Of a DNA stretch of 40,887 nucleotides, positions 5,582 to 19,399 are shown piece by piece (positions within the stretch are counted from its first letter, which is position 1; each line of letters starts with the position of its first letter). The translations under genes and the position numbers were made by a program. The stretch is from Gammaproteobacteria bacterium RIFCSPLOWO2_12_47_11 (GTDB taxonomy: Bacteria > Pseudomonadota > Gammaproteobacteria > Eutrophobiales > Eutrophobiaceae), in NCBI GenBank assembly GCA_001801885.1, contig MGYU01000096.1, positions 29,460 to 70,346 on the forward strand, read 5' to 3'. A model generated the notes under the pieces. That model saw only the letters and a program-made list of their open reading frames with translations, was not told the DNA's origin and made no database searches.

Positions 5582-8284
5582 GTGTCTGCCTTTTCAGGTC
5601 CCGGAAATACCACTCAATCCACCCGCACCACCTGCCCCTATTGTGGTGTCGGGTGCGGAGTCATCACAACTGTAAAAAATAATGGGGCAATTGAGATCAA
5701 GGGTGACTCCGAACATCCGGCCAACTTCGGTCGTCTCTGTTCCAAAGGATCGGCCCTCGGTGAAACACTTGATCTGGAAGATCGCCTGCTTTATCCGGAA
5801 ATCAACGGCAAACAAACAGATTGGAATAAGGCACTTGATTATGTCGCAACAACCATCACAGAAAGTATAGAAGTCTACGGTCCTGAATCCGTTGCCTTCT
5901 ATGTTTCAGGCCAATTACTCACCGAAGATTATTACGTCGCCAACAAACTGATGAAGGGGTTTATTGGAACTGCGAATATCGACACTAATTCACGCCTGTG
6001 CATGTCCTCCGCCGTTGCCGGATACAAACGCGCATTTGGTGCGGATTTCGTGCCCTGCAGCTATTCCGATCTGGAACAGGCGGATCTCATTGTGATTGTC
6101 GGCAGCAATACCGCGTGGTGTCACCCGGTAGTGTATCAACGCATTGTCCAGGCCAAAGAAGATAATCCCGCTTTGAAAATTGTCGTGATCGATCCCCGCA
6201 AAACAATGACGTGTGATTTTGCCGATCTGCATCTGCCAATCAAAGCCGGTACGGATGTGGCCCTGTTCAATGGTCTGTTGAATCACATGCGCCGCGAAGA
6301 TGCCCTTGACTGGAAATTTCTCGAAGATCACACAGAAGGATTTGCCGCTGCCATACAAACCGCCAAAGAGGATACACCATCAATTCCACATCTTGCCCGT
6401 GTATGTGAATTGAATGAACTGGATGTGGCGGAATTTTTTCGCCTGTTTTCCCGTATCAATAAAACAGTTACGCTATTTTCACAGGGCGTTAATCAATCCA
6501 GCCAGGGTACGGACAAGGTCAATGCTATTATTAATTGTCATCTGGCTACCGGCCGTATCGGCAAACCAGGCATGGGACCCTTCTCCATTACCGGACAACC
6601 GAATGCCATGGGTGGCCGTGAGGTTGGCGGACTCGCCAATCAACTCGCTGCCCACATGGATATAGAAAATCCGCAGGATGCAGATCGTGTGCGAAGGTTC
6701 TGGGATGCATCCACGATAGCGGACAAACCCGGTTTCAAGGCCGTGGAATTATTTGATGCAGTACATCGTGGCGAGATCAAGACAGTATGGATCATGGCCA
6801 CCAACCCGGTAGTCAGTTTGCCGGTTGCTGACAGGATATGTGATGCACTCAAAACATGTGGGACTGTAATCATTTCAGATTGCATCCGGCATACGGATAC
6901 CAACCGATATGCAGATGTCCTGTTGCCAGCGCTCGCCTGGGGTGAGAAAGATGGCACTGTGACCAATTCGGAACGGCGTATTTCGAGGCAACGAAAATTT
7001 CTGGATACACCCGGTGAAGCCAAACCGGACTGGTGGATAGTTACGCAAGTGGCGCAGCGTATGGGGTTCGAAAAAGCCTTTGCCTACAACACCCCCGCAG
7101 ACATCTTTCGGGAACATGCGGCCCTGTCCGGTTTTGAAAACAAGGGACAACGTGATTTTGATATTTCTGCACTGGCCGATCTGGATGATGAACAATATGA
7201 CCGGTTTGAACCTGTGCAATGGCCGATCAAGGTTAACCGGTATGCCGGGCAGCATACTATATCTGATGGTGTCTTTTTTCATGAAAATGGCAAAGCCAGG
7301 TTCATTGCCGTCACATACCAGGCTCCGTTTAATCCGGTGGATATTGAATATCCCTTCATTCTGAATACCGGCCGTGTGCGCGACCACTGGCATACGCTTA
7401 CCCGTACCGGCAAGTCACCACGCTTGTCGCAACATATCAGCGAACCCTTTGCGGAAATACATCCGGTTGATGCCGCACGGATGCAAATTACAGATCGCCA
7501 GCTTGTGCAGGTAACCAGCCGCTGGGGTTCAGTGATCGTCAGGAGCAGAACTATTAATGAACAACGCCGGGGCAGTATATTCATCCCTATCCACTGGAAC
7601 GATCAATATGCATCACAGGCACGGGTCAACAGCATCGTCAATCCGGTCACCGATCCGATCTCCGGCCAGCCGGAATCCAAACATACCCCGGTCAATATCT
7701 CGCCATTAAATATGGCGTGGGAAGGTTTTCTGATAACACGTGAGCCATTAATGACGCCACCGGATACTTACTGGGTGAATTATCGCGGTGACAATTACTG
7801 GCATTATGAACTTGCCGGGAAAAACATCCCGGAGGACTGGCAAGATTGGGCTCACTCACTCATGCAGTTTCATCATGAGTCTTTAGACTGGCTGGAATAC
7901 AGCGATGCCAGCATAGGCCGCTACCGTGCGGCCGATATACGGAACGGCAAACTGGAAAGTTGTCTGTTCATTGCCAAAGACCAGTCACAATTACCGGACA
8001 GAAACTGGTTACAGAGTCTATTCAGGGAAAAGACCCTCGAGAAAATCCAGCGGGCCTGCCTGCTCGCAGGAAAATCTGCAGACAAATCACAGGATACCGG
8101 CCCTATAGTCTGTTCCTGCTTCAGCGTGGGCCGCAATACCATTACCAGGACTATCTTTGAAAAAGGCATCTCAAATATCACTCAAATTGGTGAATATTTA
8201 CAGGCTGGCACCAACTGTGGCTCCTGCATCCCGGAACTCAAGCAACTACTGTCATCCAGAACTACCGCTTCTGACGCAGCCTAA
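5582..8284 (+). CDS. nasA: Assimilatory nitrate reductase catalytic subunit with C-terminal BFD-like [2Fe-2S] domain
   Basis: N-terminal 4Fe4S Mo-bisMGD motif (TTCPYCGVGCGV), molybdopterin oxidoreductase core (GVNQSSQGTDKVNAIINCHLATGRIGKPG), C-terminal IVCSCFSVGRNTI...GTNCGSCIPELKQLL. GTG start. Confidence 0.95.
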   Translation: MSAFSGPGNTTQSTRTTCPYCGVGCGVITTVKNNGAIEIKGDSEHPANFGRLCSKGSALGETLDLEDRLLYPEINGKQTDWNKALDYVATTITESIEVYGPESVAFYVSGQLLTEDYYVANKLMKGFIGTANIDTNSRLCMSSAVAGYKRAFGADFVPCSYSDLEQADLIVIVGSNTAWCHPVVYQRIVQAKEDNPALKIVVIDPRKTMTCDFADLHLPIKAGTDVALFNGLLNHMRREDALDWKFLEDHTEGFAAAIQTAKEDTPSIPHLARVCELNELDVAEFFRLFSRINKTVTLFSQGVNQSSQGTDKVNAIINCHLATGRIGKPGMGPFSITGQPNAMGGREVGGLANQLAAHMDIENPQDADRVRRFWDASTIADKPGFKAVELFDAVHRGEIKTVWIMATNPVVSLPVADRICDALKTCGTVIISDCIRHTDTNRYADVLLPALAWGEKDGTVTNSERRISRQRKFLDTPGEAKPDWWIVTQVAQRMGFEKAFAYNTPADIFREHAALSGFENKGQRDFDISALADLDDEQYDRFEPVQWPIKVNRYAGQHTISDGVFFHENGKARFIAVTYQAPFNPVDIEYPFILNTGRVRDHWHTLTRTGKSPRLSQHISEPFAEIHPVDAARMQITDRQLVQVTSRWGSVIVRSRTINEQRRGSIFIPIHWNDQYASQARVNSIVNPVTDPISGQPESKHTPVNISPLNMAWEGFLITREPLMTPPDTYWVNYRGDNYWHYELAGKNIPEDWQDWAHSLMQFHHESLDWLEYSDASIGRYRAADIRNGKLESCLFIAKDQSQLPDRNWLQSLFREKTLEKIQRACLLAGKSADKSQDTGPIVCSCFSVGRNTITRTIFEKGISNITQIGEYLQAGTNCGSCIPELKQLLSSRTTASDAA

Positions 8285-16622: not shown

Positions 16623-16700
16623 CTGGTCCTTGAACAGATTCAGGGATAAATGGTATTTGATGAACATCTACGAAATCCAAAAAGTTCATGTTTTTTATGC

Positions 16701-16757
16701 TATACGAACGCCGCATAGTATGAAATTAAGCGGCATTCGCATAATCAACTGTTAGGC
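16701..16757. other. Candidate integron attC-like site (3' half: inverted repeat plus GTTAGGC core)
   Basis: tatacgaacgccgc (16701-16714) / gcggcattcgcata (16730-16743), 12/14 complementary, then GTTAGGC (16751-16757), fitting GTTRRRY. The matching RYYYAAC is not evident. Confidence 0.4.
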
Positions 16758-16786
16758 CTTCGTATGCTCCGGAATATTTTTTTTAA

Positions 16787-17551
16787 ATGAGAGCAGATTT
16801 ATCCAAACCAGGTGAGCGGGCAATCGGGCCGACCAGCCCGATACAGAAGTCATTACGCATAATGCACGAATTTTTTAATACTCAACCTTCACCCGATATA
16901 TCAACTGATGCATCAAGAAATACTGGGCTATTAATTTCAAATCATCTTTTTTCTTTAATTGAAGCTTGTGGCCAACTGAATGGATCAGGTATGCATTCAC
17001 CAGCAGTAGTATTATTAAGATCGTTAGAAGATGCTCTTGATGTCTTTATTGCTGTCACAAGCGTACCAGGCGCTGCTGAACGTTGGGAGAAAAATGAATT
17101 AAAACCAAGTGATGCAGCAAAGCTATGGGTTGAATTGCGAGGTAATCCTCATATATCGAATGGAAAGACACTTTCAGATTATCGTAAAGGGCTTCGACAT
17201 GCTTTTAATAAATATTCTCATGCATCCTATCAACTTTGCCTATGGGATCTTTATTTTCAACCTCGTAAAAAAACAAAAAAAGGGGAAGGAGCTTCTGGTA
17301 CAGTCGAAATAAATTATCCACGACATGTAATAAATTCCAATGCACATTCTATAGATGCTCATCTCACTGCACATCATCTAGAGTTTATTGACGCAGTCAA
17401 AAATTCTTATTTTTCTACCATTAACAAATTTGAAAGAGTTAATGAATTGAATGAATTAGAAGATGAAATAATTCTAATAATGAAAAAACATGATTCACAT
17501 GGTTGTCAAAATGTACAAGAGCCAGCAGAATTACGTAGGCTTCATAATTAA
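16787..17551 (+). CDS. Hypothetical protein (254 aa), AT-rich, possibly DUF5677/HEPN-like; gene-cassette-like context
   Basis: Single ORF between attC-like half-sites; AT-rich codon usage unlike neighbours. Motifs ...LLRSLEDALDVFIAV... and ...LRHAFNKYSHASYQ... loosely suggest a helical DUF5677-type protein (weak). Confidence 0.6.
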   Translation: MRADLSKPGERAIGPTSPIQKSLRIMHEFFNTQPSPDISTDASRNTGLLISNHLFSLIEACGQLNGSGMHSPAVVLLRSLEDALDVFIAVTSVPGAAERWEKNELKPSDAAKLWVELRGNPHISNGKTLSDYRKGLRHAFNKYSHASYQLCLWDLYFQPRKKTKKGEGASGTVEINYPRHVINSNAHSIDAHLTAHHLEFIDAVKNSYFSTINKFERVNELNELEDEIILIMKKHDSHGCQNVQEPAELRRLHN

Positions 17552-17556
17552 CATAA

Positions 17557-17590
17557 GCCTAACAAGGGCCTTCACAAGGATCGCCGCAAC
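17557..17590. other. Candidate truncated attC 5' arm (GCCTAAC...)
   Basis: gcctaacaagggccttcacaaggatcgccgcaac begins 5 bp after the ORF stop; GCCTAAC fits RYYYAAC. No complementary 3' arm found within about 200 bp. Confidence 0.4.
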
Positions 17591-17640
17591 AAAAAAATGG
17601 GCCGGAGTGATTTATTTTTAACCAGCCAGATTGAAAAACA

Positions 17641-17667
17641 AAAAAGCCGCTGAAACAGCGGCTTTTT
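17641..17667. terminator. Rho-independent terminator-like hairpin (copy associated with the mdh 3' remnant)
   Basis: aaaaagccgctg-aaa-cagcggcttttt with A/T tracts on both sides. Confidence 0.8.
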
Positions 17668-17689
17668 TGTTACTTCAGTTTCTTTTCCG

Positions 17690-17734
17690 TTATGTCAAAA
17701 TTTTCGCGACGGCATCCCGTTCTTCTTCGAACTT
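17690..17734 (-). pseudogene. Remnant/duplicate of the mdh 3' end
   Basis: Minus strand reads [14 protein letters not shown], versus native [13 protein letters not shown]. 29/30 nt identity between 17699-17728 and 18428-18457. Confidence 0.85.
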
Positions 17735-17824
17735 AAAAGGGCCGGAGTGATTTATTTTTGAACAATTTATAAGTTTGGCCTAGAATTATAGTTAATCAAC
17801 CCAATAATACTGAATAAACCAGAC

Positions 17825-18058
17825 ATGACTATCAAGGAAATAGAAAAAGAGTTTCTCAACCTCAGCGATGCTGAAAAGCGGGAGGTTCTCCGTTTGCTTA
17901 TTGCTGATCTTGAGATGGAAACAGATGAGAATGTTGAGCGTGCATGGCTTGAGGAAGCACAGCGGCGATATAAAGAATTGAAAGACGGGCTGGTTGAAGC
18001 AGTTCCAGCCAATGAATCCATTGCAAAAGCCAAGGAAAGGCTGAGAGATGTTCGTTAA
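17825..18058 (+). CDS. Putative addiction module antitoxin (TIGR02574-like)
   Basis: 77 aa acidic/helical MTIKEIEKEFLNLSDAEKREVLRLLIADLEMETDENVERAWLEEAQRRYKELKDG, overlapping the downstream toxin gene by 11 bp. Confidence 0.85.
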   Translation: MTIKEIEKEFLNLSDAEKREVLRLLIADLEMETDENVERAWLEEAQRRYKELKDGLVEAVPANESIAKAKERLRDVR

Positions 18059-18344
18059 ACTTCATCCGGAAGCAGAATCAGAATTAATCGAAAACGCTAT
18101 CTACTACGAATGTGAAGTAGAAGGACTCGGTTACCGGTTTATTGAAGAGATTGAGCGCGGAATTGAAGTACTGATTGCACAACCACGATTAGGCCAGCCA
18201 TTAAACGAACAATTACGAAGTTTTGTCCTGGGTGGATTCCCCTTTTCACTAATTTATAGTCTCGAACAAGACAAAATATGGATCGTAGCTATTGCTCATC
18301 AAAAACGTCGTCCAGGCTATTGGCGTAAACGAATCAGCCGTTAA
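18048..18344 (+). CDS. RelE/ParE-family toxin
   Basis: MFVKLHPEAESELIENAIYYECEVEGLGYRFIEEIERGIEVLIAQPRLGQPLNEQLRSFVLGGFPFSLIYSLEQDKIWIVAIAHQKRRPGYWRKR: typical ParE fold motif set. Confidence 0.9.
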   Translation: MFVKLHPEAESELIENAIYYECEVEGLGYRFIEEIERGIEVLIAQPRLGQPLNEQLRSFVLGGFPFSLIYSLEQDKIWIVAIAHQKRRPGYWRKRISR

Positions 18345-18368
18345 TAAGGACATTTTAATTATTAAAAC

Positions 18369-18397
18369 AAAAAAGCCACTCAATGAGTGGCTTTTTT
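18369..18397. terminator. Bidirectional terminator between toxin gene and mdh
   Basis: aaaaaagccactcaatgagtggctttttta, flanked by convergent genes. Confidence 0.85.
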
Positions 18398-18418
18398 ATT
18401 ACTTCAAAAATAATTTTA

Positions 18419-19399
18419 TTATTTCAGAATTTTCGCTACGGCATCCCGTTCTTCTTCCAGTTCCTTTTGCGTCGCGGCCATCTTGGCCTTGCTGAATTCA
18501 TCAATCTTCAGCCCCTGCACGATCTGGTAATCGCCATTCTTGCAAGTGACGGGGAATGAATACATCAGCCCTTCGGGAATACCATAACTGCCGTCACTGG
18601 CTACAACCATACTGGTCCAATCATCATTCGGTGTGCCCAGTACCCAGTCATGCATGTGATCGATGGCGCCGTTTGCCGCGGAGGCCGCACTGGATGCTCC
18701 GCGTGCGGCAATGATCTTGGCACCGCGTTTGGCTACACGCGGAATAAATTCATTTTCATACCAGCCGCGATCGACCAGGCTGGCCGCCGATTTGCCGGCA
18801 ATTGTAGTATTGCTGATGTCCGGATATTGCGTGGTGGAATGATTGCCCCAGATGGTCATCTTTTTAATATCACTGACTTTTGCATTGGTCTTTGCCGCGA
18901 GTTGCGCCAGTGCCCGGTTATGATCCAGCCGGGTCATGGCCGTGAAATTACGCGGATTCAAATCCGGTGCGCTCACCATTGCGGTATGGGCATTGGTATT
19001 GGCGGGATTGCCCACCACGATCACTTTTACGTTGCGATCGGCATTATCATTGAGTGCCTTGCCCTGTACTTTGAAAATACCGCCATTCGCTTCCAGCAAA
19101 TCGCTGCGTTCCATGCCGGGGCCGCGCGGTTTCGCGCCAACCAGCATCGCATAGTTCACGTCCTTGAAGGCTTTATTGACGTCATCTGATAATACACAAC
19201 CCGCCAGCAATGGATATGCGCAGTCTTCCAGTTCCATGGCCACGCCTTCCAGTACCTTCATGGCAGGTGTAATTTCAAGTAATTGCAAAATGACGGGTTG
19301 ATCATTGCCAAGCATTTCGCCGGTGGCGATACGGAACAGCAGTGAATAGCCGATCTGCCCTGCGGCGCCGGTGACGGCTACACGTACTGGTTTTCTCAT
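18419..19399 (-). CDS. mdh: Malate dehydrogenase
   Basis: [31 protein letters not shown]...[11 protein letters not shown]...TRLDHNRA...[12 protein letters not shown]: Mdh of the NAD-dependent type 2 family. Confidence 0.97.

Follow-up and report, generated by a model that had tools for sequence, protein, structure and literature searches.

The window analysed here is a stretch of 40,887 nucleotides from contig MGYU01000096.1 of Gammaproteobacteria bacterium RIFCSPLOWO2_12_47_11. Between a HAD phosphatase gene and mdh it carries an AT-rich ORF with integron-like sequences at both ends, followed by a repeat phrase, a partial duplicate of the mdh 3' end and two small ORFs. The features, with the crossover in the attI core marked by a slash, are:

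16679 to 16757, plus strand: putative attI-like site, assigned from five copies in the genome, the intI-linked copy on contig C82 and homologues in genomes G005 and G340
16679 to 16699, plus strand: 5' extension of the attI-like site, common to the C31 copy
16701 to 16714 and 16730 to 16743, plus strand: arms of the palindrome of the attI-like site, TATACGAACGCCGC and GCGGCATTCGCATA
Ending at 16757, plus strand: core of the attI-like site, CAACTG/TTAGGC, with the crossover expected between 16751 (G) and 16752 (T)
16752 to 17587, plus strand: body of a single gene cassette, running from the crossover to where the surviving attC 5' arm ends, assigned from the layout and the GC content of the ORF
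16787 to 17551, plus strand: cassette ORF of 254 aa, without a known family and with distant relatives in two other genomes
17557 to 17587, plus strand: truncated attC, 5' arm (R'' = GCCTAAC plus L''), the sole match of the attC arm model in the window; the loop, L' and the R' half are absent
17600 to 17619, plus strand: dispersed repeat phrase GGCCGGAGTGATTTATTTTT, shortly past the point where the attC is truncated, again at 17740-17759 and on contigs C35 and C98
17635 to 17728, minus strand: diverged partial duplicate of the mdh 3' end and terminator, from pairwise alignment; the original lies at about 18364-18457
17825 to 18344, plus strand: two overlapping small ORFs (77 aa and 98 aa) in the same inserted block, family assigned by eye

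The inverted repeat upstream of the ORF, the GTTAGGC motif at 16751-16757, 29 bp before the ATG at 16787, and the 3' element GCCTAACAAGGGCCTTCACAAGGATCGCCGC, which begins at 17557, 5 bp past the stop, were all found where the original prediction had placed them. Its compact layout of a single-ORF cassette is confirmed, with an attC arm coming next after the stop. The ORF had also been described as AT-rich and different in composition from neighbouring genes, and its GC content is indeed 36.2% versus 48.4 +/- 3.6% for the neighbouring ORFs (z = -3.4). The 254-aa protein belongs to no Pfam, NCBIfam, PADLOC or PHROGs family, and its structure, predicted from the single sequence, reached a pLDDT of 36, too low to be of use. 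In samples spanning the class and the phylum we detected just two distant relatives, one in genome G164 (235 aa, 26% identity, pairwise E 2e-9) and one in G587, and none in the genome contig, viral contig or plasmid sets. Integron cassette genes are usually orphans of this kind. Rfam gave zero matches in the window at gathering thresholds, and a promoter scan of the region found sites no more numerous than in shuffled sequences.

In seven relatives the gene order nudix, HAD phosphatase, mdh and next gene (citrate synthase-like by eye) is kept, and the HAD and mdh genes are only 15-174 bp apart versus 1.9 kb here; the block between them is thus an insertion. These relatives have the flanking genes as close neighbours without the cassette protein, which is absent from the other genomes of the family (53 searched, own included), and the syntenic orthologues between the same flanks that the original prediction had named as evidence against a cassette did not appear. 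The inserted block also contains the diverged mdh duplicate and the two small ORFs, a probable ParE/RelE-type toxin-antitoxin pair assigned by eye, at the end of which no attC was seen with the structural attC model. The pair sits between the two copies of the mdh 3' end (17635-17728 and 18364-18457). In genome G018 the same gap is filled by a membrane-protein-like ORF, which is unrelated to the cassette of the window and has no attC. This different insert suggests that the place between HAD and mdh is open to insertions.

The upstream element, a palindrome of about 60 bp plus CAACTG/TTAGG (16700-16757), occurs five times in its own genome. The search of the assembly (2.35 Mb, 115 contigs, 92% complete) with positions 16640-17700 as the query, repeated with the C104 copy as the query, detected four further sites, on contigs C31, C55, C104 and C82, with E values of 3e-11 to 1e-19. 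When aligned from the crossover, the five copies are alike up to CAACTGTTAG (TAACTGTTAG on C55) and then diverge, and in the window the cassette begins at the attI crossover G/TTRRRY. The sequence GCCTAACAAGG occurs once in the window versus 0.01 expected by shuffling; GTTAGGC alone is not significant (4 seen versus 2.8 expected).

The C82 copy is separated by about 140 bp from the start codon of a 508-aa integron integrase that is read divergently, the position of an attI, and on the side away from intI it is followed by cassettes with eight tandem attC sites. In G005, of the same family and a different genus, CATGCTATACGGATTCCGTATAATA...GGATTCCGTATAATCAACTGTTAGG was detected on contig C208 about 150 bp upstream of an intI encoding a 464-aa protein that shares 54.5% identity with the C82 IntI. 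In G340, a genome from outside the family, GACGGCCGTATAATTC...GAAGCCGTCCGTATAATTAACTGTTAG, an attI type consisting of the palindrome and CGTATAATTAACTGTTAG, adjoins an intI whose product is 42.6% identical to the C82 IntI. The copies of C82, G005 and G340 occupy the attI position between intI and the first cassette; the window copy is without intI. Because the same element lies beside intI on C82 and its homologues lie beside intI in other genera, the upstream element is by its sequence an attI site, not an attC half-site. A pattern search of 369 genomes of the class gave, outside its own genome, only three single matches: beside intI in G340, after attC-like sequence in G025, and probably by chance in G392. 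In the window copy the loop of the palindrome is shortened, and the folding is just a little better than that of shuffled sequences (z -1.1, 30/200 shuffles as good), suggesting that this copy may be degenerate.

For the downstream end, attC sites of the C82 and C18 arrays and of relatives were gathered by fold and box. Model R1 describes the attC 5' arm by sequence only (24 arms), and model R2 covers the complete site, with its R and L boxes paired (12 sites). R1 has a single match on the two strands of the whole window, at 17558-17580 on the coding strand (9.3 bits, E 0.13); the chance that a random position falls on the right strand and no more than 50 bp past the stop is about 6e-4. The arm is modest by its score, with this E value taken over the window, and it is the placement just past the stop on the coding strand that makes it convincing. 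R2 recovers the C82 and C18 sites, several of them outside its training set, and detects a complete, untrained attC where the C31 cassette ends (30.8 bits, E 1.5e-4). It detected no complete attC anywhere in the window, further downstream included, and at the 3' end of the cassette the 5' arm alone survives. Past GCCGC (17587) the attC runs into the dispersed repeat phrase GGGCCGGAGTGATTTATTTTT, which places the cut at 17587. The phrase is found at 17600-17619 and about 17739/17740-17759 of the window, at about 3536 of L025 (C35) and at about 2060 of C98. A candidate attC on C104 (L023 9338-9401) was picked by eye and is unconfirmed by R2.

The original prediction had called for attC models to be run on this region and had proposed attC-like half-sites, neither of them complete, at both ends. 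The models gave the arm and no complete site, in agreement with the second part of the proposal; the half-site stands downstream, as an attC 5' arm, but upstream it is replaced by attI.

Two intI genes above the model cut-off were found in the genome, on C82 and C18, in the genome-wide search that the original prediction had proposed, and both are damaged. Its statement that neither intI nor a second cassette is present holds for the window but not for the genome, where C82 has its intI with eight attC and C18 an intI fragment with three attC. The 508-aa C82 protein scores 365-383 bits against TIGR02249 (cut-off 265); it reads STTMIVSPS where others have STTMIYTHV, so that the catalytic tyrosine nucleophile is lost, and carries some 40 additional residues ahead of the last catalytic segment. 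The C18 IntI begins at model position ~118-121 and its N-terminal half is absent. The G005 IntI is near-full-length with the tyrosine kept. The assembled genome yielded no intact intI, and none of the assembled copies looks functional from its sequence, while about 8% of the genome may be missing. No significant IntI match was detected in the window or on the fetched stretches of C31, C55 and C104, and the window attI is thus without the adjacent intI of a complete integron.

The integrases of L019 (10239-11765), L092 and L094 have an extra N-terminal region of ~150 residues ahead of the part matched by TIGR02249. On C82 (L019 9146-9361) we also detected a MITE-like element of ~216 bp with the terminal inverted repeats GAAGCTGTAGAAAAA, directly after CGTT of an attC R' box and bordered by GTTAGGC at its far end; on C18 a similar end follows CGTT of an attC (L020 around 6085). 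The element looks like one that targets the attC crossover.

The identity of the attI, the cassette start at the crossover, the attC arm after the ORF, the insertion between neighbouring genes and the lack of an intact intI suggest that the locus is very probably an integrase-less integron remnant with an attI, one gene cassette and a truncated attC. The idea of a stranded integron cassette was largely right, with the upstream element corrected to attI: decay and a single cassette are upheld, and the decayed or single-inserted cassette is recast as a remnant anchored at attI, one of five attI copies. A long-form IntI, from C82 or an ancestor of it, would have recombined a circular cassette into the window attI. 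The attC would then have lost its 3' half next to the dispersed repeat, and the cassette would therefore no longer be excisable in the normal way. As the intI genes of C82 and C18 are broken too, the gene would be fixed in place like an ordinary chromosomal gene. The window attI copy itself would most likely go back to the duplication of either a whole integron or just the attI region.

Three other readings of the locus were considered. The ORF is flanked by GTTAGGC and GCCTAAC, as expected if both ends were attC half-sites of a decayed array without attI, but no clear R'' (RYYYAAC) box stands to the left of the upstream element, whose sequence is conserved, unlike that of attC sites, and which lies in the attI position beside intI in this and other genomes. 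Such an array is therefore very improbable. We consider it just as improbable that IntI inserted the cassette at a chance attG-type genomic site and not at an attI copy: off-target insertion is on record (Loot et al. 2024, as cited in PMC12444791), but on the left the cassette is flanked by 60-80 bp copied from the genome's own attI, and not by a bare GTT-type site. Dispersed repeats abound in the genome, and the palindrome could be an unrelated one (REP- or MITE-like) with a chance resemblance to attC at the 3' end; however, it has only five copies, each ending at the integron crossover, one of them is beside intI with homologues beside intI in other genera, and the attC arm sits 5 bp past the stop, so that this reading is the least credible of all.

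The unusual feature belongs to the genome as a whole, which has several attI copies, at least two of them inside contigs without an adjacent intI, each followed by different DNA. The C31 and window copies lie inside contigs; C55 ends 250 bp after the attI and C104 1.6 kb after. On C31, C55 and C104 a sequence like the intI leader, CATGTGCTAATC (reverse of the intI RBS and ATG), lies beside the attI without intI; it is similar to the ribosome-binding site and start codon of intI read as reverse complement (GGAGGTTAGCACATG on C82). One common foreign sequence is fused near the intI start codon in place of intI on these three contigs, which therefore look like copies of a single unit from which intI was already gone. 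The relatives G015, G017, G024 and G062 have attI-like sites, accompanied by attC-like sites in G017, G024 and G062, and no integron integrase was detected in the four genomes at E 1e-28; the G024 contig ends beside its site. G005 has a second attI, on C157 (L084 about 6250-6323), identical over 73 bp to its intI-linked attI. It lies near the contig end, behind a short-chain dehydrogenase-like gene ending 77 bp before the core, has no intI leader and could be a strain variant or an assembly join.

Two explanations of the attI multiplicity were compared. Whole integrons may have been duplicated or acquired several times and lost intI later, so that no use of attI in trans would be needed, an account that is compatible with the integron remnant and that we consider somewhat probable. 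It agrees with the leader-like sequence retained beside the intI-less attI of C31, C55 and C104, with the attI-like sites, some with attC, in the four relatives without a detectable integrase, and with attC clusters lacking an integrase being common elsewhere (PMC9024848; PMC12444791); however, the three contigs look like copies of one unit and not like three independent losses. Alternatively, the attI could be a dispersed docking module of ~75 bp that was copied to a number of chromosomal loci, where one integrase would load it in trans. The five copies with different DNA from the same crossover onward, the intI-less upstream junction shared by three of them, and G005, where an IntI with the tyrosine coexists with a second leaderless locus of identical attI, are consistent with such loading, which we regard as possible but doubtful. 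Duplication or acquisition with loss of intI is ranked the more likely of the two.

The locus shares with sedentary chromosomal integrons, such as that of C82 in the same genome with its eight attC, an attI with a GTTRRRY core, an AT-rich orphan cassette ORF and a canonical attC arm, but it has neither intI nor a complete attC, and the genome has five attI copies. With the CALIN of IntegronFinder (cluster of attC sites lacking integron integrase), regarded as a degraded integron (PMC9024848), it shares cassette DNA without a neighbouring integrase; however, a CALIN has at least two attC and no intI, whereas the locus keeps its attI and the window holds no complete attC. For this lack of a complete attC, IntegronFinder and other standard integron callers would probably miss the locus. 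CALINs and inactivated intI are well described (PMC9024848; available text of PMC12444791). According to the same available text, about half of Xanthomonas genomes carry CALINs away from intI, and the dispersed Xanthomonas CALINs resemble the present case in having cassettes at several chromosomal places away from intI and frequent intI inactivation; they are described there by attC sites and flanking genes, and the available text makes no mention of a recognisable attI per locus. Fragments of attI inside cassettes are reported in the accessible part of PMC12901181. In these Delta-attI-type cassettes of mobile integrons, attI sequence is likewise joined to cassettes away from its intI, but there the fragment lies downstream of the ORF and replaces attC, whereas in the window attI precedes the cassette on the 5' side, as is usual.

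The usual description of an integron has a single attI adjoining a single intI. We found no description of several attI copies in one genome in the literature searched, from which subscription papers were mostly absent, and this is no proof of novelty. Five attI copies with no intact integrase, together with relatives that have attI and no detectable intI, show cassettes becoming fixed chromosomal genes. If loading in trans were true, the picture of one integron with one entry point would need changing for this group. The palindromic attI is a marker for integron relics that attC-based software would miss. Shorter integron integrases of the same family (L061/G021 and L091/G061) likewise carry a palindrome immediately ahead of an attI core with the form AATAAACTGTTA, suggesting that a palindrome adjoining attI may be a wider feature.
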